64,000 nt of DNA, taken from Streptomyces sp. NBC_01264. Its GTDB lineage: Bacteria > Actinomycetota > Actinomycetes > Streptomycetales > Streptomycetaceae. Under the pieces are notes generated by a model, which was not told where the DNA came from, searched no databases, and saw only the letters and a program-made list of their open reading frames with translations. A program made the translations under genes and the position numbers. The DNA is taken from the NCBI RefSeq assembly GCF_026340675.1, contig NZ_JAPEOX010000002.1, forward strand, positions 1,054,001-1,118,000, given 5' to 3'. Below are positions 15,606 to 45,886 of the stretch, piece by piece; positions within the stretch are counted from its first letter, which is position 1, and every line of letters begins with the position of its first letter.

Positions 15606-15630
15606 GTCGCAACGATCAGTGGAAACCGCC
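15604..15630 (-). repeat. Right inverted repeat of the IS30 element
   Basis: Read on the minus strand it begins GGCGGTTTCCA and ends TTGCGACTC, matching the left end with a few central differences. Its outer base abuts the second AGG target copy. Confidence 0.9.
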
Positions 15631-16785: not shown

Positions 16786-17517
16786 ATGAGCACTGCCGCC
16801 AACTCCGCCGTGGCCGGCCCCGCGGCCGTGAACCCGGTACAGGCCCTGCGGGTGAGCCTCCAGCTCACCGACTCGGCCTTCCCCAGCGGCTTCTACACCC
16901 TCTCCCACGGCCTGGAGGGCTACGCCCAGGCCAAGGCCGTGACCCCGGAGGGCGTACCGGTACTCCTGGCCGACCTGCTGCGGTACGCGGTGGGGCCCTC
17001 CGACGCCACCGCGCTGGCGCTGGCCCACCGGGCCGCGCTGGCCGGTGACTGGGAGGCCCTGGCCGAGACGGACCGGCGGCTGAACGCGGCCAAGCTGAAC
17101 GGGGGGCTGCGCCGCGCCGCCACCCGTACCGGCCGCCAGCTGCTGGACATGGCCCGCGAATGCGTGGGCGGGGAGCCCCTGGAGCGGTACGCGGAACTCG
17201 TGGCCGACAGGCGGGCTCCCGGCTCGCAGGCCGTGGCCGCCGGGGTCGCGTACGCGGCCGCGGGAGTCCCGGCCGAACAGGCCGTGGTCAGCGACCTGTT
17301 CGCCTACTCGGCCAGTTTCACCGGGGCCGCACTGCGGCTGCGGCTCACGGATCACCGCAAGGCCCAGGTGATCCTGCGCGGGATCGCACCCGTCATCGAG
17401 GAGGTGGCGGGGGCGGCCCTGCGCCGCGAACTCGCCGATCTCGGCGGGTGCGTTCCGATGGCCGACGTGATGTCGGGCCGTCACGAGCGGGCGGAGGCCC
17501 GGCTGTTCGCGACCTAG
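16786..17517 (+). CDS. ureF: Urease accessory protein UreF
   Basis: The 243-residue helical protein is the UreF component of the UreD-UreF-UreG assembly complex that delivers nickel and carbon dioxide to UreC. Diagnostic stretches are RVSLQLTDSAFPSGFYTLSHGLEGYAQA near residue 20 and VVSDLFAYSASFTGAALRLRLTDHRKAQ later. The ATG overlaps the ureC stop (ATGA), which implies translational coupling. It should still be translated even if ureC is broken, provided that transcription crosses the IS element, though coupling from ureC would be lost. Confidence 0.92.
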   Translation: MSTAANSAVAGPAAVNPVQALRVSLQLTDSAFPSGFYTLSHGLEGYAQAKAVTPEGVPVLLADLLRYAVGPSDATALALAHRAALAGDWEALAETDRRLNAAKLNGGLRRAATRTGRQLLDMARECVGGEPLERYAELVADRRAPGSQAVAAGVAYAAAGVPAEQAVVSDLFAYSASFTGAALRLRLTDHRKAQVILRGIAPVIEEVAGAALRRELADLGGCVPMADVMSGRHERAEARLFAT

Positions 17518-17572
17518 GCCTCCCGCCTCTCCCTCTTATCAAGCCGTCTTCTACTTGAGGTGTGTGATTTTG

Positions 17573-18196
17573 ATGACCGAGGACCACGTCCTGCGCGTCG
17601 GCATCGGCGGCCCCGTCGGTTCCGGCAAGACGGCACTGATCGAGGCCCTGGTGCCCGTGCTCATCGCGCGCGGCCACCGGCCCGCCGTGATCACGAACGA
17701 CATCTACACCCAGGAGGACGCCCGCCAGGTCCGCCGCACCCTGGCCGGCGTGCTCGATCCCGAGCGCGTCGTGGGCGTGGAGACCGGCGCCTGCCCGCAC
17801 ACCGCCGTGCGCGACGACCCGACGATGAACCTGGCCGCGGGCGCGGAGATGCTGGAGCGGTTCCCCGATGTCGACACCCTGCTCTACGAGTCGGGCGGCG
17901 ACAACCTCACCCTCACCTTCAGCCCGGTCCTGGTCGACCTCTTCCTCTTCGTCCTGGACACCGCCGAGGGCGAGAAGATGCCCCGCAAGCGCGGTCCGGG
18001 CATCACCGAGTCCGACATGCTCGTGATCAACAAGATCGACATCGCCCAGTACGTCCGCTGCGACATCGGCGTCATGGAGTCCGACGCGCACCGCGTGCGC
18101 GAGGGCCGCCCCGTGGTCCTGACCAACTGCCTGACCGGGCAGGGCCTGGAGGACGTGGCCAACTTCATCGACACCTTCCGCCGGGTCCCGGCGTGA
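17573..18196 (+). CDS. ureG: Urease accessory GTPase UreG
   Basis: A 207-residue SIMIBI-class GTPase. The P-loop is GIGGPVGSGKT near the N terminus. ITNDIYTQEDA, the metal-site pair GACPHT (Cys-Pro-His), ESGGDNLTLTFSP and VINKIDIA follow in family order. It drives nickel transfer from the chaperone to apo-urease using GTP. The ATG at 17573 is preferred, with GAGG about 12 bases upstream; TTG at 17555 and GTG at 17564 are also in frame. It is followed by ureD with a GTGA overlap. Confidence 0.93.
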   Translation: MTEDHVLRVGIGGPVGSGKTALIEALVPVLIARGHRPAVITNDIYTQEDARQVRRTLAGVLDPERVVGVETGACPHTAVRDDPTMNLAAGAEMLERFPDVDTLLYESGGDNLTLTFSPVLVDLFLFVLDTAEGEKMPRKRGPGITESDMLVINKIDIAQYVRCDIGVMESDAHRVREGRPVVLTNCLTGQGLEDVANFIDTFRRVPA

Positions 18197-19263
18197 CCCT
18201 CGTGGCGGCCGCCCCCCTCCCGACGGGCCCCGTCCCGACGGGCCCCGTCCCGGCAGGCCCCGTTCCGGCAGGCCGCCTGCCGGCCGCCCCCCGGCCGGCC
18301 GCTCCCTCGCCGCCCCGCGTCCGGCTGGATCCCGCGCACTACGAACCCCCGCGCATCCCGCACGAAGTGCTCCGGCACTCCTCGGTGCCCGACACCCTCG
18401 CTGTCGGGCGCCCCGGCAAGGTCGGCCTGCTGGAACTGGCCTTCGAGCGGGTCGGCGGCCGGACGGAGCTGGTGCGGCACTACCAGAAGTCCCCGCTCCA
18501 GATCATGCGGCCGCTCTACTTCGACCCGTACCGCCCCGACCTGCCCGTCACCTTCCTGATGTCCACGGGCGGCGGGGTCATCCAGGCCGACCGGCTGCGC
18601 ACCGATCTGTCCTTCGGCCCCGGCACCGCGGCGCACGTCACCACGCAGGCGGCCACCAAGGTCTACCGGATGGAGCACGACTACGCCGTCGCCCAGACCT
18701 TCCTGACCGCCGGCCCGGACGCGTACGTCGAATACCTGCCGGACCCGGTCATCCCCTACGTCGACTCCCGCTTCTACCAGCGCACGGTGATCACCGCCGA
18801 CCCCACGGCCACCGTCCTGGCGAGCGAGACCGTCCTGTCCGGCCGGCTCGCGCGCGGGGAGCGCAACGCCTACCAGGTCTTCGCCTCCGACTTCGAACTG
18901 CGCCGACCGGACGGCGAGTTGGTGGCACTGGACACCGTACGGCTGGAGCCGGGCGGGACCGGCGGCCGCTCCGGCTCCGGCTCCGTTGACGGGCCTGCCG
19001 TACTGGCCGGTCATTCGGTGATGGCCTGCTTCTTCGCGGTCAGCCCGCTCGCCCCCGCCCGCGAGCTCGCCGACCTGCTGGACGCGATCCTGGCCGGGCG
19101 CGGGCTCGCGTACGGGGTCAGCGTGCTGCCGCAGGACTGCGGGGCCTGGGTGCGGGTGCTCGGGGAGCACACCGAGGCCGTGACCCGGGCGCTCGGGGCC
19201 GCCTGGGACGCGGTGCGGCGCAGGCTGATCGGCGTACCCGCCCCGGACCTGCGCAAGACCTGA
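18193..19263 (+). CDS. ureD: Urease accessory protein UreD (UreH)
   Basis: A 356-residue scaffold of the urease activation complex. Core marks are GLLELAFERVGGRTELVRHYQKSPLQIMRPLYFDP, STGGGVIQADRLRTDLSFGPG, TTQAATKVYRMEHDYA and VEYLPDPVIPYVDSRFYQ. The first ~40 residues are a low-complexity Pro/Gly stretch encoded by 15-bp tandem repeats (18220-18279), absent from most relatives. The GTG at 18193 overlaps the ureG stop. An ammonium transporter gene follows after 48 bases, so ureA-D and amt are probably one transcription unit. Confidence 0.9.
   Translation: MTLVAAAPLPTGPVPTGPVPAGPVPAGRLPAAPRPAAPSPPRVRLDPAHYEPPRIPHEVLRHSSVPDTLAVGRPGKVGLLELAFERVGGRTELVRHYQKSPLQIMRPLYFDPYRPDLPVTFLMSTGGGVIQADRLRTDLSFGPGTAAHVTTQAATKVYRMEHDYAVAQTFLTAGPDAYVEYLPDPVIPYVDSRFYQRTVITADPTATVLASETVLSGRLARGERNAYQVFASDFELRRPDGELVALDTVRLEPGGTGGRSGSGSVDGPAVLAGHSVMACFFAVSPLAPARELADLLDAILAGRGLAYGVSVLPQDCGAWVRVLGEHTEAVTRALGAAWDAVRRRLIGVPAPDLRKT
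18220..18279 (+). repeat. Four 15-bp tandem repeats in the 5' end of ureD
   Basis: Units begin CCGACGGGCC or CCGGCAGGCC and encode PTGPV/PAGPV-type pentapeptides. The repeat keeps the reading frame, so copy-number change would only lengthen or shorten the disordered N terminus. Confidence 0.8.
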
Positions 19264-33749: not shown

Positions 33750-34160
33750 ATGAGTGACCTGCTGGAGCGGCTGCGCGAGCGCGGCTGGCGGATGACCTCC
33801 CAGCGGCGTGTCGTCGCGGAGGTGCTCGACGGTGACCACGTGCACCTCACGGCCGACGAGGTGCACGCCCGCGCCGTGGAGCGGCTGCCCGAGATCTCCC
33901 GGGCCACCGTGTACAACGCCCTGGGCGAGCTGGTCTCCCTCGGCGAGGTCATGGAGGTCACCACCGACGGCCGGGCCAAACGCTACGACCCCAACGCGCA
34001 CCACCCGCACCAGCACCTGGTGTGCTCCGGCTGCGGCCTGATCCGCGACGTCCACCCCACCGGCGACCCGCTGGCCGGCCTCCCGACCGAGGACCGGTTC
34101 GGTTTCACGGTGTCCGGGGTCGAGGTCACCTACCGGGGGCTCTGCGCCTCCTGCGCGTGA
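33750..34160 (+). CDS. Fur family regulator (FurA/CatR/PerR-like)
   Basis: A 136-residue metalloregulator. The winged helix has RERGWRMTSQRRVVAEVL and LPEISRATVYNALGELVSLGEV. The metal region has NAHHPHQHLVCSGCGLI and ends GLCASCA, the two CxxC pairs of a structural zinc site. The ATG at 33750 is preferred over GTG 33738. By family and divergence from katG it probably represses katG and itself and is inactivated by peroxide. Confidence 0.9.
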   Translation: MSDLLERLRERGWRMTSQRRVVAEVLDGDHVHLTADEVHARAVERLPEISRATVYNALGELVSLGEVMEVTTDGRAKRYDPNAHHPHQHLVCSGCGLIRDVHPTGDPLAGLPTEDRFGFTVSGVEVTYRGLCASCA

Positions 34161-34166
34161 GACGGC

Positions 34167-34197
34167 CCGGGCCCGCCGCACGGAGCGGCGGGCCCGG
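34167..34197. terminator. GC hairpin after the fur gene
   Basis: CCGGGCCCGCCGC pairs with GCGGCGGGCCCGG over a 5-base loop, 7 bases after the stop. Confidence 0.7.
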
Positions 34198-34304
34198 CCC
34201 GAATTCGCCCGTACGGGACCTCGCCCGCGGTGCCCGAGGTGGACGCGGGTCCGGCCCGGAGGCCCACCCGGACACCCTCCGGCCGGACACCGTCCGGCCC
34301 GGCG

Positions 34305-34760
34305 TCAGCCCAATTGGATGTCGGAATCCGGCTGGGCGACCTTGAACAGCGCGCGGGCGATCACCGCGGCGTCCTCGTCCGTGAGGTGCGCGGAGAAGTG
34401 CTTCTGGATGCTGCGCATGTAGACCGGGGCCGTCGCCCGGTGGGCCTCGGCCCCCGCCGGGGTGATCACGGCCCAGGAGGCCCGTTTGTCGTGCGGGTCG
34501 GGCAGCTTGTCCACGAGGCCGGCGCGCACCATCTCGTCGATCAGGCGGCTGACCCGGGTGCGGCTGAGCACCACCCGGTTGGCCACCTCCTGCATGCGTA
34601 GCCCGTGCTCCCCGGCCGCCTTGAGTTCGAGCAGTACGTCGTACCACGTCAAGGGGATCCGGCCGTCGCGCTGCACGTCGCTCTCGATGGCGCGTACGGC
34701 GGCGTTGTGCGCGAGGAGCATCGCCCGCCACGCCTCGAGTCGATCATCCCGTTCGGTCAC
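34305..34760 (-). CDS. MarR family regulator of a rhodanese-YceI pair
   Basis: A 151-residue winged-helix protein. TWYDVLLELKAAGEHGLRMQEVANRVVLSRTRVSRLIDEMVRAGLVDKLPDPHDKRASWAVITPAG is the standard MarR core. It is divergent from a rhodanese gene, and the spacer contains two GTGCGNNCGCAC palindromes 28 bp apart, which are probable operators. There are no Cys residues in this protein, so if it senses sulfur or redox species it does not do so through its own thiols. Confidence 0.88.
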   Translation of the reverse strand: MTERDDRLEAWRAMLLAHNAAVRAIESDVQRDGRIPLTWYDVLLELKAAGEHGLRMQEVANRVVLSRTRVSRLIDEMVRAGLVDKLPDPHDKRASWAVITPAGAEAHRATAPVYMRSIQKHFSAHLTDEDAAVIARALFKVAQPDSDIQLG

Positions 34761-34782
34761 GTCGCGATCCTACTCCCATTGC

Positions 34783-34822
34783 GTGCGCCCGCACACACTT
34801 GCTAAGGTGCGTGCGTACGCAC
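34783..34822. promoter_or_regulatory. Two GTGCGNNCGCAC operators
   Basis: GTGCGCCCGCAC at 34783-34794 and GTGCGTACGCAC at 34811-34822. They have identical arms, and their centres are 28 bp apart. They lie between the divergent marR and rhodanese genes. Confidence 0.75.
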
Positions 34823-34853
34823 TTATTGCTCCTTGATTTTCGGAGGCTGGCAC

Positions 34854-35186
34854 ATGGCGGTTCAGAACCTCTCCCGCGACGAGGTCAAGCAGAAGCTCGA
34901 CAGCGGCAAGGCCGCGGTCGTCGAGGCCCTGCCCGAGCAGTACTACAAGGAGGCGCACCTGCCGGGAGCGCTGCTCCTGCCCGTCGACGACGTCGACACG
35001 CTGGCCCCCGGCCTGCTGCCCGACAAGGACGCCGAGGTCATCGTCTACTGCACCGGTACGACCTGCTCCAACTCGGGAATCGCGGCCGAGCGGCTCGCGG
35101 AGCTCGGCTACTCGAAGGTCTTCACCTACAAGGACGGCAAGGAGGACTGGATCGGGGGCGGGCTCCCGACCGAGTCCGGCGTCTGA
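34854..35186 (+). CDS. Rhodanese-like sulfurtransferase
   Basis: A 110-residue single rhodanese domain. It has AAVVEALPEQYYKEAHLPGALLLPVDDV and the active loop YCTGTTCSNS, in which the first Cys aligns with the catalytic, persulfide-forming residue. CGGAGG precedes the ATG at 34854. It is co-directional with a YceI gene 35 bases on. The role could be sulfur transfer or detoxification. Confidence 0.9.
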   Translation: MAVQNLSRDEVKQKLDSGKAAVVEALPEQYYKEAHLPGALLLPVDDVDTLAPGLLPDKDAEVIVYCTGTTCSNSGIAAERLAELGYSKVFTYKDGKEDWIGGGLPTESGV

Positions 35187-35221
35187 GCGGTACACCCCCA
35201 CACGAGCAGGAGGAACGGGCG

Positions 35222-35800
35222 ATGACCAGGAGCGCGACATCCCCGACCCGCACCGTGGACGGGGTCGAACTCCCGGCCGTGGGTGACTGGAAGGTCGACC
35301 CGGGACACGCCGAGGTCGGATTCCTCGGCCGGCACTTCATGCTCACGAAGGTGCGCGGCCGGTTCACCGGCGTCGACGCCACCGTCTACATCGGCGAGCG
35401 GCCCGAGGACAGCAAGGTCACCGCGGTGATCGACATGGCCAGTGTCAACAGCGGGGACACGGCCCGGGACGACCACCTGCGGTCCGCCGAGTTCTTCGAC
35501 GTGGCCGAGCACCCCCGGGCGACGTTCACCTCGACGTCGGTGAGCTGGAACGGTACGAGCGGCACGCTCGCCAGCGATCTCACGATCAAGGGGTTCACCC
35601 GTCGCGTCGAGCTCGACGTCGACTACCTGGGCCACGCCAAGGACCCGTGGGGCAACGACCGCACGGTGTTCTCGGCCCGCGGCAGGATCAACCGCGAGGA
35701 CTGGGGCCTGACCTGGAACATGGCCCTGGAGACCGGCGGGTTCCTGGTCTCCAAGGAGATCGAGCTCTCGCTGGAGATCGAGGCGGTCAGGGAGGTCTGA
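35222..35800 (+). CDS. YceI family polyisoprenoid-binding protein
   Basis: A 192-residue lipocalin-like barrel. DWKVDPGHAEVGFLGRHFMLTKVRGRF starts the domain. VNSGDTARDDHLRSAEFFDVAEHPRATFTSTSV and INREDWGLTWNMALETGGFLVSKEIELSLEIEAVR follow in family order. YceI proteins bind isoprenoid or amide ligands. No signal peptide is present, so it is cytosolic. It is probably in one operon with the rhodanese. Confidence 0.92.
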   Translation: MTRSATSPTRTVDGVELPAVGDWKVDPGHAEVGFLGRHFMLTKVRGRFTGVDATVYIGERPEDSKVTAVIDMASVNSGDTARDDHLRSAEFFDVAEHPRATFTSTSVSWNGTSGTLASDLTIKGFTRRVELDVDYLGHAKDPWGNDRTVFSARGRINREDWGLTWNMALETGGFLVSKEIELSLEIEAVREV

Positions 35801-35821
35801 CGTCCCGCACGTCGACCCGAT

Positions 35822-35853
35822 GGTCCCGGTACGGCCACCGCCGTACCGGGACC
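35822..35853. terminator. Perfect 14-bp hairpin between yceI and tetR
   Basis: GGTCCCGGTACGGC pairs with GCCGTACCGGGACC over CACC. The flanking genes converge. Confidence 0.75.
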
Positions 35854-35904
35854 GCCCCTGCCCGCGGCGGCGTCCCGGCCAGGGCTCCCGGTCAGGGCTC
35901 CCGG

Positions 35905-36492
35905 TCAGGCCTCCAGGACCCGCCGCACTACCTCGCCGAGCGCCCCCCGGATCCGCCCGGGGGTGAACTCGGCTCTGCGCAAAGCCTGCTGGAGGTCCGC
36001 GTCGACCATGGCGAGCAGCAGGTGCGAGGTGCCCTGGGCGTCCAGCTCCGGGCGCGCCTCGGCCAGCAGGACGGACAGGTGGCGCTGCCACAGGCAGTAG
36101 GAGGCGATCCGGTACCGGACGCCGGGCGCGGTGGTCTCGGAGAGCCGCACCAGCTCCAGGTTCGCGTCGAGCAGGTCCAGGTACGTGTCGAAGAAGGCGG
36201 TGATCCGCGTGCTCGCGTCGGCTCCGGGCCCCAGGGGCGGCGGCCCGAACAGCATCCTGCTCTGGAGCTCGCTCTCCTGGGTGTCGAGCAGGGCCACGGC
36301 GAGCCCGGACTTGCTTCCGAACCGGCGGAACAGCGTTCCCTTGCCCACGCCCGCGCGTGACGCGATGGCGTCGAGGGACACGTTCGCGACGCCGTGCTCC
36401 CCGAAGAGTTCGGCGGCGACCGCCAGGATGCGGTCACGGTTCCGTGCCGCGTCCGCCCGCTCGCGGACCGGCTTCCGGATGAGCTCGGTCAC
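35905..36492 (-). CDS. TetR family regulator next to the roh-like cluster
   Basis: A 195-residue TetR protein. RNRDRILAVAAELFGEHGVANVSLDAIASRAGVGKGTLFRRFGSKSGLAVALL is the DNA-binding domain, and the rest is helical. It is divergent from the biosynthetic operon starting at 36766. A CGGAC-4-GTCCG inverted repeat at 36569-36582 lies close to the operon side and could be its operator. It is therefore the obvious candidate pathway regulator. Confidence 0.88.
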   Translation of the reverse strand: MTELIRKPVRERADAARNRDRILAVAAELFGEHGVANVSLDAIASRAGVGKGTLFRRFGSKSGLAVALLDTQESELQSRMLFGPPPLGPGADASTRITAFFDTYLDLLDANLELVRLSETTAPGVRYRIASYCLWQRHLSVLLAEARPELDAQGTSHLLLAMVDADLQQALRRAEFTPGRIRGALGEVVRRVLEA

Positions 36493-36568
36493 CTAACCCC
36501 CAACTGCCCTTCTTCGCCGTTCGTTTGCTTGCCCGCGTGAACACGATGTGTCAGGGTCGTCGCCGAAA

Positions 36569-36582
36569 CGGACCGCAGTCCG
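36569..36582. promoter_or_regulatory. Candidate TetR operator
   Basis: CGGACCGCAGTCCG has 5-bp arms and a 4-bp centre, located between the tetR gene and the biosynthetic operon. Short and unproven. Confidence 0.35.
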
Positions 36583-36598
36583 CTTACGGGGGACCACC

Positions 36599-36685
36599 AT
36601 GACACAGCTCAAGGGCCGCCGCACTGCGTTCCCTTCAGGAGCCGGCCGCCCACGGCAGATTTCGGCCGGCCCGACCGCCGGCTGA
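36599..36685 (+). CDS. Small 28-codon ORF upstream of the biosynthetic operon
   Basis: ATG at 36599 with GGGGG 6-7 bases upstream, a stronger ribosome site than chance would give, opens 28 codons and ends 80 bases before the next gene. The peptide begins [11 protein letters not shown] and is rich in Arg and Gly. It could be a leader peptide or simply part of the 5' leader. Confidence 0.35.
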
Positions 36686-36765
36686 TCCCGCCCACCGCGA
36701 GCACAGTGAGTGCGCCCGAGCGCGCACCACTCCCCCTGGCACGCACGCCCTCGACCGGAGGAAGC

Positions 36766-37950
36766 ATGACCACGCACCCCAGCCCGACCAGCCCGGACCA
36801 CCAGCTCCTCGACCTGACCCAGCACGAGATCCAGGCGCTGCGCACCAGGTTCAACCTCGCCGACGCCCACACCCACCAGCAGCAGTCGGACAGCCAGCGT
36901 CAGATCGTCGCCCGGCTGCCCGAGCTCTGGTACGAGGCGGAGCGCGGACTGCAGGCGACGGCCGAGGAGCGCTTCGTCGAGGCCTTCTTCACCCTGCACC
37001 GCCAGGACACCGCCCTGGCCAAGAACAAGACCCTGCTGTCGTACGCCGCCTCGATCTCGACGATGGTCGCCGGCATGTACCTCAAGCAGCAGCGCAAGTC
37101 GGTCACGCTGGTGGAGCCCTGCTTCGACAACCTCTACGACGTCCTGAACAACATGGGCGTACCGATGTACCCGATCGAGGAGTCGGCGCTCCACGACCCG
37201 GACCGGATCTACTCCGAGCTCAAGCGCCTGGTCCGCACCGACGCCCTGTTCCTCGTCGACCCGAGCAACCCCACCGGCTTCACGCTGCTCCAGCACGGCC
37301 GCAAGGGCTTCGAAGAGGTGATCCGCTTCTGCAAGGACCACAACAAGCTGCTGGTCATCGACTTCTGCTTCGCCTCGTTCACGCTCTACGACGAGAAGCT
37401 CGCCCGCTTCGACATCTACGAGCTGCTCGAAGGCTCCGGCATCTCCTACCTGGCCATCGAGGACACGGGCAAGACCTGGCCCGTCCAGGACGCCAAGGCA
37501 GCCATGATCACGGCCAGCGACGACATCCGCGAGGACGTCTACAACCTGCACACCAGCGTGCTGCTCAACGTCTCGCCCTTCGTGCTCACCATGCTGACCC
37601 AGTACGTCCAGGACTCCACCCGCGATCAGCTCGGCTCCGTCCGCGAGGTGCTCACCACCAACCGCGAGGCGATACGCAAGGCGATCGACGGCACGATCCT
37701 GGAGTACCAGGAGCCCGTCGCCGGAGTGAGCGTCGCCTGGGCGCGCATCGCCCACCCGGAGCTGACCGCGACCGAACTGCAGCGGCTCCTGGCCGAGGCC
37801 GAGGTGTACGTCCTGCCCGGCCGGTTCTTCTACTGGAGCCAGCCGGACCGCGGCGAGGCCTTCGTCCGGTTCGCCCTCGCCCGCGATCCGCAGGTGTTCT
37901 CCGACGCCATGGCCCGGATGCGCGAGGTGCTCGACCGCCATGCCGTCTGA
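36766..37950 (+). CDS. rohP: PLP-dependent arginine oxidase/hydroxylase (RohP/MppP-like)
   Basis: A 394-residue fold-type I PLP enzyme from ATG 36766 (GGAGGA upstream). The cofactor lysine is K236 in IEDTGKTWP, the motif I remember from MppP-type L-arginine oxidases. [10 protein letters not shown] and [11 protein letters not shown] also match that group, as does [12 protein letters not shown]. These enzymes use only PLP and dioxygen to turn L-arginine into 4-hydroxy-2-ketoarginine. In azomycin assembly RohP does this first step. The next genes encode an aldolase and a di-iron N-oxygenase in the order expected for that pathway. An ordinary aminotransferase is the main alternative. Confidence 0.8.
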
Positions 37951-38464
37951 CACGACCGCCCCCTACGAGTACTCCGACGAGTACGCCGATGCCGCGCTCT
38001 TCCTCGGCATGAACAGCGAGGACGAGGACGTACGCCGTGCTTGCAAGGCCTTCTTCGTGGAACGGCTCGACGGCCGGATCGTCATGAGCCTGGAGCAGGT
38101 GGGCCGCTGCGACGACATCATCTGGGGCTTCTCCCGCGAACTCCAGGACACCTACTACCCGTTCATGGACAACCTGCACACCGTGATGGACATCCACCGG
38201 CTCGGCTACGAGGAGGCCGACGTCCTGCGCGCCTCCGACCCGGAGCTGCCCCGGTCCCTGCCGGTGCACGAGCGGCTGCTCCTCGGCATGGTCGAGGGCC
38301 GCAAGGGGCTGCTGCACACGGCAAGTCCGCGCCTCACGGCCACGACCGGCCTCGCGCTGCGCGCCGTGGCCGGCGCCGACGGGCCGGAAGCCGTCTTCCC
38401 CGAGCCGCTGGAAGGCCTCTACCAGCAGTCCCTCGCCCTGCGCGTGCCGGCCGAAGCCCTGTGA
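37940..38464 (+). CDS. rohQ: Small unknown protein of the roh-like cluster (RohQ position)
   Basis: A 174-residue protein overlapping the end of the previous gene by 11 bases. [81 protein letters not shown] is conserved-looking and resembles a PIN-like or DUF6190-type fold with clustered acidic residues. By position it corresponds to the cyclase/dehydratase that closes guanidinoacetaldehyde to 2-aminoimidazole in azomycin biosynthesis. Sequence alone does not show that activity. Confidence 0.6.
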
Positions 38465-38474
38465 CGGAGGACCG

Positions 38475-39254
38475 ATGATCACCGGAACGACCACCGCGCT
38501 CGTCACCCCGGTCGACGCGGCGGGAGAGATCGACGAGAAGAGCATGGCCCGCCTGATCGCCTCCGTACGGCCCTACGCGGACGCCCTGTTGCCGGCGCTG
38601 AGCACCGGCGAGGGGGGCTCCCTGTCGGACCGGCAGTGGCGGGACACGCTGACCGCCGCCGTCCGGTACGCCGACGGCTTACCGGTCCTCGCCGGCATCC
38701 TGCGGCCCACCACGGCCGGGGCCCTCGCCCTCGCCCATAGCGCGGGCGGACTCGGCGCCGCCGCGGTCGTGGTCACCACCCCGTACGGGGCGGACGTGAC
38801 CCAGGAGGAGATGTACCGCCACTTCGAGACCGTGGCCGGGGCCGGACTGCCCGTGATCGTCTACCACGAGTCGGCCGTGTCCGGGAACGGCCTCGCACTC
38901 GACACCCTGCTCCGCGTCTGCGCGCTGCCGGGGGTGGCCGGGGTCAAGGACTCCGCCGGGGAGCCCGGGTTCACCCGCGCGCTGATCGCCGCCGGCCCGG
39001 GCGTGCCCGTGGTCCAGGGGCTCGAACACCTGCTGCTGGACTCCGGACCCGTCGACGGCTGGATCGTCGCCCTGGGCAACGTCGAACCGGAGCTCTGCCA
39101 GGCCCTGTTGACCGACCGCGGCGAGGAGCGGGCGGCGCAGTTGCGCTCCGCGTACGCACGGTACGGCCTGGACCGCGACGACTGGTACCGCTCCCTGAAG
39201 ACCGAACTGCTGCGGCGCGCCGTGATCGAGACCGACCGGGAGGTCCCGTGCTGA
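38475..39254 (+). CDS. rohR: DHDPS-family aldolase (RohR-like)
   Basis: A 259-residue TIM-barrel aldolase. The Schiff-base lysine is in GVAGVKDSAG, and the catalytic tyrosine is in PVIVYHES. ALVTPVDAAGEIDEKSM and ALSTGEGGSLSDRQW are the DapA-type start. In the azomycin pathway this family member splits 4-hydroxy-2-ketoarginine into pyruvate and guanidinoacetaldehyde. Its place just after the arginine-oxidase gene supports that role over lysine biosynthesis. The start is 10 bases after the previous stop. Confidence 0.8.
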   Translation: MITGTTTALVTPVDAAGEIDEKSMARLIASVRPYADALLPALSTGEGGSLSDRQWRDTLTAAVRYADGLPVLAGILRPTTAGALALAHSAGGLGAAAVVVTTPYGADVTQEEMYRHFETVAGAGLPVIVYHESAVSGNGLALDTLLRVCALPGVAGVKDSAGEPGFTRALIAAGPGVPVVQGLEHLLLDSGPVDGWIVALGNVEPELCQALLTDRGEERAAQLRSAYARYGLDRDDWYRSLKTELLRRAVIETDREVPC

Positions 39255-40087
39255 ACGTGACACCGAAGCCCGAAGACAGCGCACAAAGGCGGCTGTTCCT
39301 CCACAACCGCACCCTGCAGAGCTCCGCGGTCCTCACCCGGATCGAGGAGCTGGAGGCGGACTGGATCGAGCCCCTCGTCGGGGACCTGGCCGACCGCACC
39401 TCCCCGCTCGCCGGCCGCGCCGAATGGAAGGAACGCCTCGACGGACTACTGGTCCTGGAACGCGAGGGCAGCCCGGCCGGCAGCTATCTCGCCGAGAAGG
39501 CCACCCGGGAGCAGTTCGCCCACATGGTAAGGGAGTTCGCGCTCGACGGACTGACCGAGGCGCAGAACTTCTTCCCGGCGGTGCCCCGGCTGCCGATCCG
39601 CGCGCAGATGGCCGTGATGCGGGTGCTCATCGACGAGTTCGGCTGCGGCAACCTCCAGCAGACCCACTCCAAGCTCTACCTCGACCTGCTCGCCGAACTG
39701 GGTCTCCCCCAGGAGCTGGAGAGCTTCCTCGACACCACCGCCGACGAGACGTACGCGTTCCTCAACGTCTTCTACTGGCTCACCCAGCGCGCCGCGGACG
39801 TCGAGTACTTCCTCGGCGCCCTCGCCTACCTGGAGGCGAGCATCCCCGACGCCTTCACGGTGCAGGCCCGCGCCTGCGCCCGGCTCGGGATCGAGCAGGG
39901 CAGGTACTACACCGAGCACCTGCACATCGACACCTTCCACCTGCGGGAGATGCAGACCGCGATCAAGGAGTACGAAGCGGCGCGCGGACTCGACGCGACG
40001 AAGCTCTGGATCGGGGCGCAGCTGCTGTCCGGGCTGATCGGGGCCGCCTTCGACGCCGCCGTCGAGCGCGCGCGGGAGGTGGCATGA
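39248..40087 (+). CDS. rohS: Haem-oxygenase-like di-iron N-oxygenase (RohS-like)
   Basis: A 279-residue all-helical protein of the HDO superfamily. Glu/His ligands are plausible in ATREQFAHMVREFALDGLTEAQNF, NLQQTHSKLYLDLLAELG and YYTEHLHIDTFHLREM, the final helix carrying the E-x-x-x-D-x-x-x-H pattern. RohS uses such a site to oxidise 2-aminoimidazole to 2-nitroimidazole. It overlaps rohR by 7 bases and is followed by a Rieske-containing protein that could supply electrons. Other HDOs desaturate or fragment substrates, so product identity is inferred from context. Confidence 0.8.
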   Translation: MLNVTPKPEDSAQRRLFLHNRTLQSSAVLTRIEELEADWIEPLVGDLADRTSPLAGRAEWKERLDGLLVLEREGSPAGSYLAEKATREQFAHMVREFALDGLTEAQNFFPAVPRLPIRAQMAVMRVLIDEFGCGNLQQTHSKLYLDLLAELGLPQELESFLDTTADETYAFLNVFYWLTQRAADVEYFLGALAYLEASIPDAFTVQARACARLGIEQGRYYTEHLHIDTFHLREMQTAIKEYEAARGLDATKLWIGAQLLSGLIGAAFDAAVERAREVA

Positions 40088-41388
40088 GCGACGCCGTGCT
40101 GGAAGAGCTGCCGGGCGACCGGGTACGGGTCCGCGTCGCGGGCCGGGAGTTCGTGATCGACGCCGCCTGTACGCACCGGCTCGGCCGGCTCGTGCACGGT
40201 CAGGTCAATCCGCGCACCCTGCGCATCACGTGCCCGCTGCACGGCACCGGCTTCGACCTCGCCACCGGCTGCCCGGCCGCCGGCCCGGCCGCGGAGCCGC
40301 TGAAGGTCCACCACACGGGCGTGCTCGGCCAGGTGTACGAGCAGCAGGACCTCTGGCTGCCGGCCTCCGCGCGGCTCCTCGAATGGGACGACGGCTTCCA
40401 CGACCTGATGCTGGGCGACCGGCTGCGCATGGCCGCGTACAAGGCGGCGATCACCGAGGCCGTGCGGCCCGGCGCCACCGTACTGGACCTGGGCACCAGT
40501 ACGGGCATCCTGGCCCAGTGGGCACTGGAGGCGGGGGCGGCCCGGGTCTACGGCATCGACCTCAACGAGAAGATCCTGCGGACCGCGACGCGCAGGCTCA
40601 CCGAAGCCGGGTTCGGGAGCCGTTTCCATCCGTTGCGCGGGTTCTCCTTCGACATCGAGCTGCCCGAGCGGGTGGACCTGATCATCTCCGAGATCATGGG
40701 CAACCTCGCCGACAACGAGAACTGCGTCGCGATCCTCGACGACGCCCGCAGCCGCTTCCTGCGGCCGGGCGGCGCGATGCTTCCGGTGGCCGTGGAGAGC
40801 TATCTCGTACCGGTCACCGCGGAGGCGGCGCACGGCGCGGTGCGCGACGGGAGGCCGCAGGACGCCGGGAGCCCGGCCGAGTTCGCCGAGCTGCTGAAGG
40901 GGCGCGGGGCACGGGACGCCTTCGACCTCTACTACGACGCGATCATCCCGGTGGGCGGCCAGCTCTCGGCGCCGCGGCTCCTGCGCCGGTACGCCTTCGA
41001 GGGGACGCACGGCGCTCAGGAGACCTCGTTCGAGGTTCCGCTCGTGTACACCGTCCAGCGGGCGGGGCTGTTCACCGGCTTCAAGGGCTACTTCGTGGCG
41101 ACCCTCTCGGACACGGTGGCCCTGGACATCTCCGGTGACGACGTCGCGGCGCACGATCCGCGGGCCCGTACGACCTCGGACAGCTGGAAGCACGCCTACC
41201 TGCCGGTCCGCGACGCCGTGCCGGTGCGGCCGGGCGACCGGATCGCGCTCACCTTCTCCAGACGGCACCCGGCCGGCATCGGATCCGGATCCTTCGGACA
41301 GGTCTACGGCTGGGAGGGCTCGGTCGTCTCCGGGGACGTCACCGTGGCCCGGTTCTCGCACAGCACCCGGCCCGACCAGGAAGGCTGA
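40084..41388 (+). CDS. Fusion of Rieske [2Fe-2S] domain and PRMT-like methyltransferase
   Basis: A 434-residue fusion. Residues about 1-95 are Rieske-like with ligands C29, H31, C50 and H53 (CTH...CPLH), so the full CxH-18-CxxH motif is present. From about residue 110 a class I SAM methyltransferase follows: motif I in VLDLGTSTGILAQWALEAGA, acidic YGIDLNEKIL, and a double-Glu-like loop ISEIMGNLADNE similar to protein arginine methyltransferases. A C-terminal beta-barrel region is consistent with PRMTs. It overlaps rohS (ATGA). The Rieske centre may feed the N-oxygenase, and the methyltransferase may act on a guanidine or imidazole. Confidence 0.82.
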   Translation: MSDAVLEELPGDRVRVRVAGREFVIDAACTHRLGRLVHGQVNPRTLRITCPLHGTGFDLATGCPAAGPAAEPLKVHHTGVLGQVYEQQDLWLPASARLLEWDDGFHDLMLGDRLRMAAYKAAITEAVRPGATVLDLGTSTGILAQWALEAGAARVYGIDLNEKILRTATRRLTEAGFGSRFHPLRGFSFDIELPERVDLIISEIMGNLADNENCVAILDDARSRFLRPGGAMLPVAVESYLVPVTAEAAHGAVRDGRPQDAGSPAEFAELLKGRGARDAFDLYYDAIIPVGGQLSAPRLLRRYAFEGTHGAQETSFEVPLVYTVQRAGLFTGFKGYFVATLSDTVALDISGDDVAAHDPRARTTSDSWKHAYLPVRDAVPVRPGDRIALTFSRRHPAGIGSGSFGQVYGWEGSVVSGDVTVARFSHSTRPDQEG

Positions 41389-41393
41389 AGCCC

Positions 41394-42149
41394 GTGACCA
41401 CGACGACCCCGGCGAACGCAGCGGCCACGACCGGCACGACGGGCAGCCCGCTCACGGACCCGCGGCTGCCCGCGACGCCCGGCACGATCAGCGTCTACAC
41501 CGATCTGAACTGCTCCTTCGCCCACGTGGCTGTGCACCGGCTGCACGAGACCCGGCGCGAGCTGGGTCTGGAGGGACGGATCCGGTTCGACTTCCGGGCC
41601 TTCCCCCTGGAGCTGTTCAACCGGGAGGTCAACGCCCGCCCCGGAGTCGACTCCGAGATCTCGGTGCTCGGCGCGCTCGAACCGGAGGCCGGCTGGCGCC
41701 TGTGGCAGGGGCCCGACTGGACCTACCCGGTCACCACCCTGCCCGCGCTCGAAGCGGTGCACGCGGCCAAGTCCCAGTCCATGGAGGCCAGTGAGCGGCT
41801 CGACCGCGCCCTGCGCCGGGCCTTCTGGGCGGAGGGCCGCTGCATCTCGATGCGCCACGTCATCCTGGACGTGGCCGCCGCGACGGGCGCCGTGCAGGTG
41901 GACGAGCTCGCGCACGCCCTCGACACGGGCTCGGCGCGAGCGGCCGTGACGGCCCAGTACGAGTCGGCGCGCGAGGGCCGGGTCAACTGCAGCCCGCACG
42001 TGTTCCTCCACGACGGCACCGACATGGCCAACCCCGGCATCGAGGCGCGCTGGGTGAACAGCGACTTCGGGGAGGGGTTCCCCGTGATCGACCGGGACCG
42101 CCCGGAGGTGTACGCGGAACTCCTCGCGCACGCAGCCCGGTTGCTCTGA
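41394..42149 (+). CDS. DsbA/GST-kappa-like thioredoxin-fold protein
   Basis: A 251-residue thioredoxin-fold protein of the FrnE/2-hydroxychromene isomerase type. ISVYTDLNCSFAHVAVHRLHETRREL holds the active-site region with one Cys, and RVNCSPHVFLHDGTDMANPGIEARW is the second half with the cis-Pro loop. It has only a single Cys at the active site, which suggests glutathione- or mycothiol-type isomerase chemistry rather than a disulfide shuffle. It begins at GTG 41394, 5 bases after the fusion gene, so it is the last gene of the cluster. Confidence 0.8.
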   Translation: MTTTTPANAAATTGTTGSPLTDPRLPATPGTISVYTDLNCSFAHVAVHRLHETRRELGLEGRIRFDFRAFPLELFNREVNARPGVDSEISVLGALEPEAGWRLWQGPDWTYPVTTLPALEAVHAAKSQSMEASERLDRALRRAFWAEGRCISMRHVILDVAAATGAVQVDELAHALDTGSARAAVTAQYESAREGRVNCSPHVFLHDGTDMANPGIEARWVNSDFGEGFPVIDRDRPEVYAELLAHAARLL

Positions 42150-42162
42150 GCCTCGCCCCGGG

Positions 42163-42191
42163 GCCGGGCCCGTCCGTACGACGGGCCCGGC
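42163..42191. terminator. Perfect 12-bp hairpin between converging operons
   Basis: GCCGGGCCCGTC pairs with GACGGGCCCGGC over CGTAC. It separates the roh-like operon from the 2-methylisoborneol operon. Confidence 0.75.
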
Positions 42192-42214
42192 TGTTCTTCA
42201 GACGTGGCCCTTCA

Positions 42215-43111
42215 TCAGACGCGGTCGGCCGCGATCAGGACGTACTGGAAGGAGCCGTCCTTGTAGGACTCGATGAACGCCTCCTCGATGCCGGTGACCA
42301 GCGAGGACGTGGCCCTCAGCTCCCAGTAGGGCAGGGTCGCGGGGGTCAGGTCGATGACGGCCTGCGGTACGAGGCGGTTGTCCGCCATGGCCTTCAGGTA
42401 CTCCCGGCGGGAGTGGATGTTGCACTCGAAGTGGGCGTTGATCTGGGAGACCCACTTCGAGGGCTGGCCGTACCGCGGGTTCCAGCAGCCGGTGATGGTC
42501 ACGTACCGGCCGCCGACCTTCAGGACGCGGGAGTGCTCGGCGAACAGGTCGTCCAGGTCGACGTACATGCTCGACTCGTTGTTCCAGGACGCCGTGGCCT
42601 GGCCGGTCTCGAAGGGCGTGCCGAGCATGTTGCAGACACGGGCCCGGACGTGGTCGTCGATCCCGAGGTCGCGGGCGCGCTGGTTGGCGAAGTCGGCCTG
42701 CTTCGCCGAGAGGGTGACGCCCTCGACCTTGGAGCCGAAGCGCTGGTGGGCCATCACCATCGAGCCGCCGCGGCCGCAGCCGGCGTCCACGAGCGTGTCC
42801 TCGCGGCCGATGGGACCGAGGTGGTCCAGGAGGAGTTCGGCCTGCGCCGACTCCAGCCGGTGCAGTTCGGCGACCAGCCTCTTCTCGTACGCGCTGTCGG
42901 CCGTGTCGCCGAGGGCGGCGTGGTCGACGTCCCCGATGCCGTAGTGGTGGTGGTAGAGGCCGTCCACGTCGCCGAGGCGCAGGTTCACGGGCCTGGCCTC
43001 GTTGTTCCAGTAGCGGGCGATGTCCCCCTGGTAGGGGGTCGCCGGCCCGGGAATGATCACGGTGCCGGGGGTGGTGCCGTTGGCGCCGGTGGTCACGTCA
43101 ATGCTGGTCAC
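42215..43111 (-). CDS. Geranyl diphosphate 2-C-methyltransferase
   Basis: A 298-residue SAM methyltransferase that makes 2-methyl-GPP, the precursor of 2-methylisoborneol. IARYWNNEARPVNLRLGDVDGLYHHHYGIGDVD at the start, LVDAGCGRGGSMVMAHQRFGSKVEGVTLSAKQ as motif I, and SWNNESSMYVDLDDLFAEHSRVLKVGGRYVTITG match this family. The GTG at 43111 gives the expected length; longer frames run into the neighbouring gene. It is 14 bases after the synthase stop, in the same order as the S. coelicolor SCO7699-7701 operon. Confidence 0.93.
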   Translation of the reverse strand: MTSIDVTTGANGTTPGTVIIPGPATPYQGDIARYWNNEARPVNLRLGDVDGLYHHHYGIGDVDHAALGDTADSAYEKRLVAELHRLESAQAELLLDHLGPIGREDTLVDAGCGRGGSMVMAHQRFGSKVEGVTLSAKQADFANQRARDLGIDDHVRARVCNMLGTPFETGQATASWNNESSMYVDLDDLFAEHSRVLKVGGRYVTITGCWNPRYGQPSKWVSQINAHFECNIHSRREYLKAMADNRLVPQAVIDLTPATLPYWELRATSSLVTGIEEAFIESYKDGSFQYVLIAADRV

Positions 43112-43125
43112 GAATAGGTCCGTCC

Positions 43126-44373
43126 TTACCAGAAGTCGGGCAGGCTGTAGCGATAGGTATTGGTCTGGTGCCAGTAGTGGTTGCCGTCGACCCATACGGC
43201 GACTCCCCGCAGGAAGCGCAGCACGCTCGGGACGGGGCAGGCCGCGGCCAGGGCGGCGGCCTCCGCTTCGAAGGCGTGCATGAGGTCGTTGTGGACCTCG
43301 ACCGCCTTCAGATAGCCCTCCTTGTCGGAGGCCCCCTCCCGGTCGGCGATCACCACGGGAAGGTTCATGTGCCGCCCCGGGGCGGCCAGTTCCTTGGTGT
43401 AGGAGTAGAGGTCGTTGACGATGGTGGTGGCGTTGCCGGCGAGTGCGATGACCCGCTGCATGGCCGCCTGGGCATGTAGATCGGCCGGGAGCTCGTACCC
43501 CCCGACGGTGTCGGTGATGGTGGGGCAGGGGCGGAAGTTGTTGAACTGCCGCATGGCCAGGTACTCCCACACCTCGGGGACGTACTCCGTCTGGCTCCAG
43601 GCCGCCTCGGCGAGGTACCCCAGGTGCAGCCGGGCCATGTCGTGCCGGTAGCGGTCCGCCTGCGAGGGGCTGGCCTGGCGGAGGAAGTACTCCATGGCTG
43701 AGCGGTAGGCGCGTCGGGGCGCGTCCGACCCGAGCGACTCCGCCCACGCGGGCTCGTACTCCTTCGTCGTGTGGAGGGGGTCGATCGCGGTGTGCGCCAG
43801 CAGGAGCCGTCCGCCGAGGCCGATGGGCGAGCCGCCGTGGTCCTCGCAGTAGCAGTCGTCCACCGCGTTCTCGGCGACCATCAGCCGGGTGGCGACCATC
43901 AGGTGCTCGATGGTGGGGGCGTCGGGGTGGCAGGCCACCATGTAGCGCCCGACGTGGAAGCCGTCGAACTGGTTCTCCCAGGCGTCGGGGAACAGATCGA
44001 CCTCCTCCACCGCCCAGGCCTTGATCCGGCGGCTGGCCTCCTCCACCCGCACCGGGTCGGGCTCGGGCACGGGGTGGAAGTAGAGGCCCGGGATCGGGTT
44101 TCCGGCCGCGGGGGCCGCCGGCTCCGGAGCCGGCGCGGGGGGTGCTTCCCGGCGGGCCGGGTGCAGGCCCTCCGTGCCCAGTCCGCTGGGTCCGCCCAGG
44201 AGCCGTCGCAGGGCGGCGCTCGGGGCGGGCGGAGCGGGCGGCTGCGACGGGACGGGCAGGGTGGGCAGGCCTCCCGATGCGGGGACCTTGACGCTGCCGA
44301 GGACGTGGGCCCCGAACTGGGCAGCGGCGCCGGGCAGGCTCGACTGCAGAGGGGAAGGCCCGGGCTCGGGCAT
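43126..44373 (-). CDS. 2-Methylisoborneol synthase
   Basis: A 415-residue class I terpene synthase that cyclises 2-methyl-GPP to the earthy odorant 2-methylisoborneol. The metal-binding Asp-rich motif is in ENAVDDCYCEDHGG, the NSE-type motif is in ATTIVNDLYSYTKELAAPGRHMNLP, and the C-terminal HYWHQTNTYRYSLPDF is typical. The first ~105 residues are Pro/Ala-rich and disordered, longer than catalysis requires. In related species this N terminus acts as the targeting peptide for encapsulin loading, which matches the encapsulin gene just upstream. Confidence 0.94.
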   Translation of the reverse strand: MPEPGPSPLQSSLPGAAAQFGAHVLGSVKVPASGGLPTLPVPSQPPAPPAPSAALRRLLGGPSGLGTEGLHPARREAPPAPAPEPAAPAAGNPIPGLYFHPVPEPDPVRVEEASRRIKAWAVEEVDLFPDAWENQFDGFHVGRYMVACHPDAPTIEHLMVATRLMVAENAVDDCYCEDHGGSPIGLGGRLLLAHTAIDPLHTTKEYEPAWAESLGSDAPRRAYRSAMEYFLRQASPSQADRYRHDMARLHLGYLAEAAWSQTEYVPEVWEYLAMRQFNNFRPCPTITDTVGGYELPADLHAQAAMQRVIALAGNATTIVNDLYSYTKELAAPGRHMNLPVVIADREGASDKEGYLKAVEVHNDLMHAFEAEAAALAAACPVPSVLRFLRGVAVWVDGNHYWHQTNTYRYSLPDFW

Positions 44374-44473
44374 CCGTGACTCCTTGGTGAGGTGGGTGTT
44401 CTGTCCCGGATCCCGGGCGCGCTCGGCCGGCCCGGGAGGGTCCGGGCTGTCGTCGTACGGGTCCGCCGGCCGG

Positions 44474-45886
44474 TCAGTCGCTGCGGCGGGCGATCTGGAC
44501 GTTCTCCAGGACGCCGAGGGCGTCGGGCACCAGGATCGCGGCGGAGTAGTAGGTGGTGACCAGGTAGGAGATGATCGACTTCTCGTCGATGCCCATGAAA
44601 CGGACCGACAGGCCCGGCTCGTACTCCTCCGGCAGGCCGGTCTGGCGCAGTCCGATGACGCCCTGGTTGTCCTCGCCGGTACGCATGGCGAGGATGGAGC
44701 TGGTGTTCTCCTTGGTGATGGGGATCTTGTTGCAGGGCAGGATCGGGACCCCGCGCCAGGCCGGGACCTGCTGTCCGCCCACGTCCACGTGGTCCGGGTA
44801 GAGGCCGCGGGCGTTCATCTCACGGCCGATCGCCGCGATCGTGCGGGGGTGGGCGAGGAAGAGCTTGGTGCCGCGGCGGCGGCAGAGCAGCTCGTCCATG
44901 TCGTCCGGGGTGGGCGGGCCGGAGTGGGTCTGGATCCGCTGCTTGAAGGCGGCGTTGTGGAGCAGGCCGAACTCCCGGTTGTTCACCAGCTCGTGTTCCT
45001 GGCGTTCGCGCAACGCCTCGATGGTGAGCCGGAGTTGCTCCTCGGTCTGGTTCATCGGCCCGTTGTAGAGGTCGGCGACCCTCGTGTGCACCCGCAGGAC
45101 GGTCTGGGCGATGGAGAGTTCGTACTCGCGCGGCTTCGATTCGTAGTCGACGAAGGTGCCGGGCAGTTCAGCCTCACCGATGTGGCCGGCCGACATCGCG
45201 ATCTCGGCCTCGCCGTGCTTGTTCTGCCGCTGCAGGGGCAGCGAGCTGAACCGCTGGATGTGCTCCTGGAGGTGCGGCGCCCCGGACACGATGCCGCCGA
45301 AGTCGGCGCGGGAGAGCGTGAGCAGGGTGCCGGGGGTCTCGGCGGTGGCCGTGTAGTCCCACCGGGCGTCGGAGTCCAGCAGGGCGTTCTCGCCGAACCG
45401 GTCGCCGTCGGCGAGCACCGCGACGGAGATCTCGTCGCCGTACTTGCCCGCGGAGGTCTGGCTGATCCGGCCGTGGGCGATCAAGTGGATCTGCTCGGCG
45501 GGGGCGCCCCGCTCGACCAGCACCTCGCCGGCCCGGAAATCGCGCTGGACGCACCGGCCGGCGATCGCCGTCAGCACTTCCTCGTCGTCGAAGCCGCGCA
45601 GCAGGGCGAGTTCGCCGAGTTCGCGCGGGATCACCTGGACACGGGCACCGTCCTGGACGAACTCGATGCTCCCGTCGCCGACGGTGTAGCTCAGCCGGCG
45701 GTTCACCCGGTAGGCGCCGCCCTTGGTCTCCACCCAGGGCAGCATCCTCAGCAGCCAGCGGGAGGTGATCTCCTGCATCTGCGGGGCGGACTTGGTCGTG
45801 GTGGCAAGGTTGCGGGCGGCCGACGTGCCCAGGCTGGACTGCTTGGGCGGATCCAGCTGTGCTTCCGGGCTGGTGTCAACGGTCAT
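44474..45886 (-). CDS. Family 2B encapsulin shell protein with cyclic-nucleotide-binding domain
   Basis: A 470-residue HK97-fold shell protein of encapsulin family 2B. The N-terminal arm is followed by an inserted CNB domain (about residues 90-215) with [25 protein letters not shown] and [33 protein letters not shown]. The HK97 part resumes, with [39 protein letters not shown] and, near the end, [35 protein letters not shown]. It is the first gene of the leftward operon with the terpene synthase and GPP methyltransferase, so it probably encloses the synthase. Confidence 0.9.

Follow-up and report, generated by a model that had tools for sequence, protein, structure and literature searches.

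The closest described systems are the rohPQRST clusters for azomycin (2-nitroimidazole). According to the accessible part of PMC12713392, Pseudomonas strains with rohPQRST are azomycin producers and the activity disappears in a deletion mutant, and the RohPQRST proteins of Streptomyces eurocidicus, WP_102919045 down to WP_102919041, are 54.6, 38.2, 36.1, 40.6 and 38.8% identical, respectively, to those of a Pseudomonas operon. Their five core functions were found, in unchanged order, in a stretch of 64,000 nucleotides from the 10.67 Mb genome of Streptomyces sp. NBC_01264 (positions 1,054,001 to 1,118,000 of contig NZ_JAPEOX010000002.1), referred to below as the window. In contrast to the described clusters, the Rieske protein of the window is fused to a methyltransferase resembling protein arginine methyltransferases (PRMTs), and the five-gene definition omits a conserved DsbA-fold gene, a TetR gene with its site, and the YceI, rhodanese and MarR genes. 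The locus was read, with a probability of roughly 0.8, as a nitroimidazole (roh) operon of the type named clade A below, in which the PRMT-fold methyltransferase most probably N-methylates a small guanidine at a late step.

A second precedent is the biosynthesis of streptozotocin, where SznE/StzE methylates the guanidine of arginine for the di-iron enzyme SznF/StzF, as described in the accessible part of PMC11705231. As in the window, a guanidine methyltransferase is paired there with a haem-oxygenase-like di-iron N-oxygenase. However, SznE acts on free arginine, whereas the Roh route forms the ring before N-oxygenation; the likeness is one of function. The saskemycin cluster was found with SznE as the query (PMC12637814, a preprint, accessible part).

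In the open-licence literature, among the matches listed, no title or abstract opening links azomycin or the roh genes with a methyltransferase; the roh core is already known, and the conserved methyltransferase, the Rieske fusion and the full extent of the cluster were not found described among the same matches. The founding papers, reportedly Hedges and Ryan 2019 and Hedges 2018, may already show the neighbouring genes. A Streptomyces yielding 94 ug/mL azomycin is described in PMC12511057, the accessible main text of which does not contain the word genome.

The roh core of the window

Six head-to-tail genes were located on the plus strand at 36766-42149, neighbouring genes overlapping or being separated by no more than 11 nucleotides, in the order RohP, RohQ, RohR, RohS, a 434-residue fusion protein (40084-41388) and a 251-residue DsbA-fold protein. 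A first-pass annotation of the window, made from the sequence alone, had placed a Roh-like cluster here, with an MppP-like pyridoxal phosphate (PLP) enzyme carrying K236, an unknown 174-residue protein, a DHDPS-type aldolase and a haem-oxygenase-like di-iron protein, all overlapping or nearly so. The overlaps of rohQ with rohP (11 nucleotides) and of rohS with rohR (7 nucleotides) agree with this description.

The PLP enzyme is RohP, with the lysine at K236 as annotated. It matched PDB entry 6c3a at E 2.6e-200 with 668 bits and 75% identity, and MppP (5dj1) at E 1.2e-58 with 202 bits; the relationship to GntC was weaker. The entry 6c3a, named 'Uncharacterized protein' in its PDB file, is presumably RohP of S. 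cattleya, with which azomycin formation was studied in vitro. An ordinary aminotransferase was rejected as an explanation of RohP, the best PDB chain named as a specific aminotransferase resulting in E 1e-8 versus 2.6e-200 for 6c3a. RohP matches in plasmid records were confined to three records, each below 32% identity. The 174-residue protein is not an unknown one but RohQ, matching the PDB chains named RohQ, 9c5w and 9oq8, at E about 2e-25. The aldolase corresponds to RohR, in which the Schiff-base lysine of the family is at the position of Lys158 in the motif GVKDS. The di-iron protein is RohS by its match to 9pfx, 'PbrRohS'. In a sequence alignment, all six di-iron ligand positions of SznF, presumably E189, E215, H225, H311, D315 and H318, were kept in RohS as E104, E130, H140, H224, D228 and H231. 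The Rieske domain carries the motifs C29-x-H31 and C50-x-x-H53.

The comparison with the RohP-S set, which the first-pass annotation had proposed together with one of gene order, assigned every protein to its named Roh counterpart. Of the two findings which it had named as speaking against the assignment, neither was observed: RohP grouped with 6c3a instead of ordinary aminotransferases, and the iron-ligand positions of RohS were all present in the sequence alignment. Judged by the match scores, a chance origin of the Roh matches is excluded. The presence of P-Q-R-S at 36766-40087 in the published order with the catalytic residues kept was confirmed. The order P-Q-R-S-Rieske of the window was also that of all ten Pseudomonas clusters fetched, which suggests that the Rieske protein is RohT.

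By homology with its relatives, RohP would convert L-arginine into 4-hydroxy-2-ketoarginine, which RohR would cleave to guanidinoacetaldehyde and pyruvate; RohQ would close the ring to 2-aminoimidazole, and RohS, presumably with electrons from the Rieske domain, would oxidize the amine to the nitro group. Homology supports an azomycin-type pathway, the product of which may be azomycin or a derivative, as annotated.

Methyltransferase-bearing clusters and the proposed methylation step

Residues 92-434 of the fusion protein matched PRMT6 at E 1.2e-21 over 146 residues. The AlphaFold model of the methyltransferase domain had a mean predicted local distance difference test score (pLDDT) of 81.5, and its best PDB matches were to PRMT5 at E about 1e-25, with PRMT6, 2, 8 and 1 among the first 50 and 331-361 columns aligned. 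By this model, the domain is a whole PRMT fold comprising the Rossmann domain and the beta-barrel. The double-Glu loop, which in PRMTs binds the guanidinium, is represented by E203 and E212, whose spacing of nine is also that of PRMT6. The loop with the PRMT spacing was invariant in 23/23 aligned proteins and was found also in a 24th, that of Pseudomonas locus L102.

For the comparison of loci, named genomes were scanned with RohP, resulting in 70 loci (L009-L078), and ten Pseudomonas regions (L102-L111; ten fetched of the 16 RohQ-positive genomes among 348 searched) were added, which together with the window amounted to 81. The nearest clusters to that of the window are in Streptomyces (RohP 97% in L009). 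A quick tree of P, Q, R and S, in which two long branches meet, included 51 of the 81 loci; loci in which P, Q, R or S was not present over at least half its length, or in which a stop interrupted the S stretch, were dropped, the methyltransferase-bearing L019 and L021 among them. By gene content and this tree, the actinobacterial clusters split into clade A and clade B with 21 loci each. In clade A, which includes the window, P, R, S, the Rieske protein and the methyltransferase were present in 21/21 loci, RohQ in 19/21, and the DsbA-fold gene in 19/21, the contigs of the other two ending before that position. In clade B, the methyltransferase was found in none and the DsbA-fold gene in 16/21.

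Altogether 24 of the 81 loci had the methyltransferase. Outside clade A these were the two Burkholderiales loci, Paraburkholderia L051 and Janthinobacterium L049, both with the gene upstream of rohP, and one of the ten Pseudomonas clusters, with the gene downstream of the Rieske gene. The Rieske protein and the methyltransferase were fused in 12/21 clade-A clusters, and by frame the Rieske protein was a separate gene in 9/21. The presence of the methyltransferase required two changes on the tree of 51 loci; therefore, one old gene was lost twice or the gene was gained more than once.

The association with the pathway was also followed in 392 genomes of the genus, of which 31 had rohQ; as the best few candidates (9, 5 or 6) were scored per genome in these surveys, absence is to be read as not found. 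Close orthologs of the methyltransferase (66-100%) were detected in 13 genomes, all of them rohQ-positive, at a distance of about 1.9 to 2.3 kb from rohQ on the same contig in every case. Neither the remaining 18 rohQ-positive genomes nor the 361 rohQ-negative ones yielded any, and only distant PRMT-like proteins (32-44%) occurred in eight other genomes.

The PRMT-fold enzyme would N-methylate a small guanidine, and every intermediate up to 2-aminoimidazole carries one. Because the Rieske domain presumably supplies electrons to RohS, the fusion of the methyltransferase to it suggests a late step. The residues of RohP, RohQ, RohR and RohS which switch with the methyltransferase were scanned against two control splits; one such residue was found in RohR and none in RohP, RohQ or RohS, with 0 to 4 per protein in the controls. 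Since no covariation beyond the controls was seen in the core, a late substrate is favoured, 2-aminoimidazole, a cyclic guanidine, being the tentative first choice at somewhat less than even odds. In this case an N-methylated 2-nitroimidazole would be formed alongside or instead of azomycin, an outcome again placed a little below an even chance.

Several observations weigh against the preferred reading. The scan, being within the controls, gives no sign that the core enzymes meet a methylated substrate. In motif I of the S-adenosylmethionine site, the window has DLGTSTG where the other 22 proteins have DLGTGTG, the second glycine being serine in the window only, and this serine may weaken the enzyme in the window strain. 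The domain has DSW where most PRMTs have THW, and YFxxY was not seen, LLEWDDGFH standing before the HxxM helix; both THW and YFxxY are motifs of protein-arginine methyltransferases. In one of the 13 genomes with a close ortholog, G464, the match lies in two pieces in different frames. Finally, the azomycin producer S. eurocidicus has a clade-A cluster with the methyltransferase, L018, and azomycin may for this reason itself be the end product. The same species also has a clade-B cluster without the methyltransferase, L029, so that either cluster may be the source of its azomycin.

The two clusters of S. eurocidicus were compared with the ten Pseudomonas clusters. The identities of P, Q, R, S and T were 51-55, 35-40, 36-43, 38-43 and 40-47% for L018, and 45-54, 34-43, 34-38, 33-41 and 44-57% for L029. 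The published values of RohP and RohT favour L018 and that of RohS leans to it, RohQ fits both, and the published 36.1% of RohR is just under the range of L018 (36.3-42.9) and inside that of L029. The falling order of the accessions fits L018, which is reversed on its contig. We infer that the published S. eurocidicus cluster is L018 rather than L029. The gene order of L018, MarR-rhodanese-YceI-P-Q-R-S-Rieske-methyltransferase-(oxidase)-DsbA, is the same as in the window; unlike the window, L018 encodes the Rieske protein and the methyltransferase in two genes, lacks a TetR gene at this place, and carries a gene for a 1262-residue multicopper-oxidase-like protein.

The better fit of the published cluster to L018 than to L029 is consistent with the most serious alternative, namely a plain azomycin cluster with 2-nitroimidazole as the end product, where the methyltransferase stands off the main line and, for example, inactivates surplus azomycin or 2-aminoimidazole through N-methylation as self-protection. 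The 75% identity of RohP to 6c3a, presumably the enzyme of the in vitro work, and the negative scan of the core enzymes point the same way, but the methyltransferase is fused to the Rieske domain in 12/21 clusters and its close orthologs were found solely in the cluster across the 392 genomes, a tighter link than self-protection by an optional gene would call for; a module with the DsbA-fold gene already has the appearance of the protective part. This alternative was regarded as rather unlikely.

A lower standing, that of an improbable reading, was given to a methyltransferase acting first, on free L-arginine as SznE does, with the core carrying the methylated guanidine to a ring-methylated aminoimidazole. 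The streptozotocin and saskemycin precedents, as far as their accessible texts go, and the PRMT fold with its double-Glu loop argue for it; against it stand the absence of covarying residues in RohP, RohQ and RohS, with the single one in RohR within controls, and the fusion to the presumed partner of RohS, which points to a late step. RohP is also assumed by us to use unmethylated arginine. Very improbable is a true protein arginine methyltransferase modifying RohS, the Rieske domain or a regulator: its nearest relatives of known structure, by sequence as well as by fold, methylate proteins, but the gene is co-inherited with one small-molecule pathway across phyla, and the substrate motif YFxxY was not seen. 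A cluster for a non-nitroimidazole, MppP-like enzymes also starting enduracididine and related pathways, is hardly credible despite the relationship of RohP to MppP and, more weakly, GntC, and the MppP/enduracididine route was rejected as the main reading because RohQ, RohS and the Rieske protein are present, RohR included, in order with RohP, and RohP is far closer to 6c3a (668 bits) than to MppP (202 bits).

The preferred late N-methylation of a small guanidine can be extended to two chemical types, five-gene clusters for azomycin and methyltransferase-bearing ones for N-methylated 2-nitroimidazoles, with species like S. eurocidicus carrying both; this extension is possible but doubtful. Equally doubtful is its evolutionary part, in which a PRMT-fold enzyme would have switched from proteins to a small cyclic guanidine as its substrate and been coupled, through the fusion, to the protein that carries electrons to the N-oxygenase. 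One cluster of each clade apiece was found in S. eurocidicus, S. olivoreticuli and S. albireticuli, and owing to both types being present in S. eurocidicus, the question of which cluster makes azomycin is directly answerable there. Nitroimidazole drugs descend from azomycin and most of them are N-substituted. If a widespread branch of the azomycin-type clusters does carry a dedicated N-methyltransferase, N-substituted nitroimidazoles may already exist as natural products, for the synthesis of which the enzyme would serve as a biocatalyst.

Some clusters deviate from the common gene content. L019 and L021 of clade A have no rohQ between P and R, with P of L019 ending at 11140 and R beginning at 11193, and keep the other cluster genes; either ring closure is spontaneous in them or rohQ is elsewhere. 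In L024, from Kitasatospora, P, Q and R are present, no S or methyltransferase was found in 21 kb, and the locus was not counted in clade A; its pathway may stop at 2-aminoimidazole. In genomes of candidate phyla, distant RohQ-like proteins (27-28%) are encoded next to RohP- and RohR-like genes (L057:10512-11069, L046:7449-8036), and RohS was not found in the available stretches, that of L046 ending soon after rohR.

A gene between the methyltransferase and DsbA-fold genes was detected in 16/21 clade-A clusters. It encodes a protein of about 1250 residues (L011:14800-18513, L018:14840-18628), which, judged by its motifs, is presumably multicopper-oxidase-like. The lineage of the window (window, L009, L010, L038) has the fused Rieske-methyltransferase and lacks the oxidase gene at the cluster. 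A search of the whole genome of the window did not find the gene, and the same query had matches in 4/8 other genomes; the four without a match were the genomes of L009, L010 and L038 and the incomplete metagenome-assembled genome of L025.

DsbA-fold protein, upstream genes and predicted operator

The DsbA-fold protein has a one-cysteine site, C40-S-F-A43, and a second cysteine, C199, in CSPH, both invariant in 26/26 aligned proteins. A search of PDB sequences resulted in no match at E 0.1. Its model, with a mean pLDDT of 84.8, shows a thioredoxin fold with a helical insertion and matched FrnE (best, E 4e-7), GST kappa and HCCA isomerase, with Rv2466c at rank 41 (E 6e-3). The overall fold is thus common with FrnE, GST kappa and the Rv2466c/Mrx2 family, whereas the CxxC active site of DsbA/Mrx2-type dithiol oxidoreductases is replaced by C-S-F-A with its single cysteine, and the identity was 14-18% over the first twelve matches. 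According to the accessible part of PMC11841060, Rv2466c reduces nitro compounds with mycothiol; a thiol-dependent handling of the nitro compound by the DsbA-fold protein is our guess.

At E 1e-20 or better, the family was present in 31/31 rohQ-positive genomes versus 28/361 others. From these 28 DsbA-positive, RohQ-negative genomes the 14 regions with the best matches were fetched, and 6/14, not a random sample, had the DsbA-fold gene beside DMT-type transporter-like and TetR-like genes without roh (L173-L178). The DsbA-fold/transporter/TetR set has the look of a protection module adopted by roh clusters.

Upstream of the operon, the MarR gene was found in 19/21, the rhodanese gene in 20/21 and the YceI gene in 19/21 clade-A loci. 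The order MarR-rhodanese-YceI was upstream in 18/18 loci displayed with all three, with MarR adjoining rhodanese in 18/18; in L025 rhodanese is downstream instead. Gene families outside the block, defined by more than 30% identity with a simple gene finder that called few genes in L053, each occurred in at most 3 of 22 compared loci. Generic chromosomal neighbourhood was rejected as the explanation of this block, since a rhodanese ortholog of at least 75% was found in 2/41 genomes of the genus, that of the window and G372, both with a clade-A cluster. The next-best match, 40%, was in a genome without RohQ, and two clade-B genomes among the 41 were without the ortholog. The DsbA-fold protein, rhodanese and YceI would form the protection or stress side of the cluster. 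The earlier suggestion that the extra genes alter or protect the product could be made specific in this way, as methyltransferase, DsbA-fold protein and stress block, their functions remaining putative. The five-gene definition of the pathway is questioned by these data, as the methyltransferase, the thiol protein and the stress block show a conservation in Streptomyces clade A that nearly equals that of the core.

The TetR family was present in 12/21 clade-A loci, upstream of rohP in ten and downstream in L025 and L053. The gap between TetR and rohP carries CGGACCGCAGTCCGCTTACGGGGG. The operator pattern was detected in 10/10 clade-A clusters with TetR upstream of rohP versus 0/9 without TetR, and no exact site was found in L025 and L053. 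In the 10.7 Mb genome, a single site matched the pattern when up to 2 mismatches were allowed. Taken by itself and with 2 mismatches, the 14-base repeat was no rarer in the window than expected by chance. The case for the operator is one of conservation, not of the repeat, and the co-occurrence suggests that TetR acts at the conserved site before rohP.

A 28-codon frame (36599-36685) begins with its ATG at 36599 between TetR and rohP. A conserved leader peptide is not claimed there, because the short frames of the relatives vary in length and sequence.

Coordinates and neighbouring genes

The features of the cluster are collected in Table 1. The conserved cluster spans 34305-42149, wider than the range of 36599-42149 in the first-pass annotation, which did cover the core and ended with the sixth gene, the DsbA-fold one. 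Its start fell on the 28-codon frame instead of rohP, the Rieske-methyltransferase fusion and the DsbA-fold protein were left unnamed, and the four conserved genes upstream, MarR, rhodanese, YceI and the TetR gene with the conserved operator, lay outside.

Table 1. Features of the conserved roh cluster, in window coordinates.
Feature	Position	Strand	Evidence
MarR-type regulator, outer border of the conserved block	34305..34760	-	weak NCBIfam MarR matches, under cut-off
Rhodanese-like protein, 110 residues	34854..35186	+	
YceI-like protein	35222..35800	+	NCBIfam YceI E 2.9e-34, under its curated cut-off
TetR-type putative cluster regulator, divergent from rohP	35905..36492	-	PF00440 E 6.2e-17
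Predicted TetR operator, upstream of rohP	36569..36592	+	inverted repeat CGGAC-CGCA-GTCCG then CTTACGGGGG
RohP, predicted O2- and PLP-dependent L-arginine oxidase/hydroxylase, 394 residues	36766..37950	+	6c3a E 2.6e-200; K236
RohQ, predicted cyclodehydratase (DUF6190), 174 residues	37940..38464	+	PF19689 E 1.8e-64; PDB RohQ 9c5w/9oq8
RohR, predicted DHDPS-type retro-aldolase, 259 residues	38475..39254	+	PF00701 E 7.3e-30; Lys158 in GVKDS
RohS, predicted haem-oxygenase-like di-iron N-oxygenase, 279 residues	39248..40087	+	9pfx E 2.7e-60; SznF alignment
RohT-type Rieske [2Fe-2S] domain, N-terminal part of the fusion	40084..40356	+	PF00355 E 1.9e-8; motifs
PRMT-like methyltransferase domain, C-terminal part of the fusion	40357..41388	+	PRMT6 match; AlphaFold model
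DsbA-fold thiol protein, 251 residues	41394..42149	+	PF01323 E 3.5e-11; structure model

A search for tRNA genes found none in the window, and 34000-43000 had no match to Rfam. A cluster of the 2-methylisoborneol type lies convergent to the roh operon at 42215-45886; its genes, judged by their sequences, presumably encode a methyltransferase, a terpene synthase and a cyclic-nucleotide-binding protein. Among the urease genes at 12082-19263, a ureC-like frame (13835-14512) ends early, an IS30-type transposase-like frame follows at 14598-15605, and UreC-like residues resume after it at 16175-16789. From these frames and their motifs, the region looks like an insertion inside ureC.

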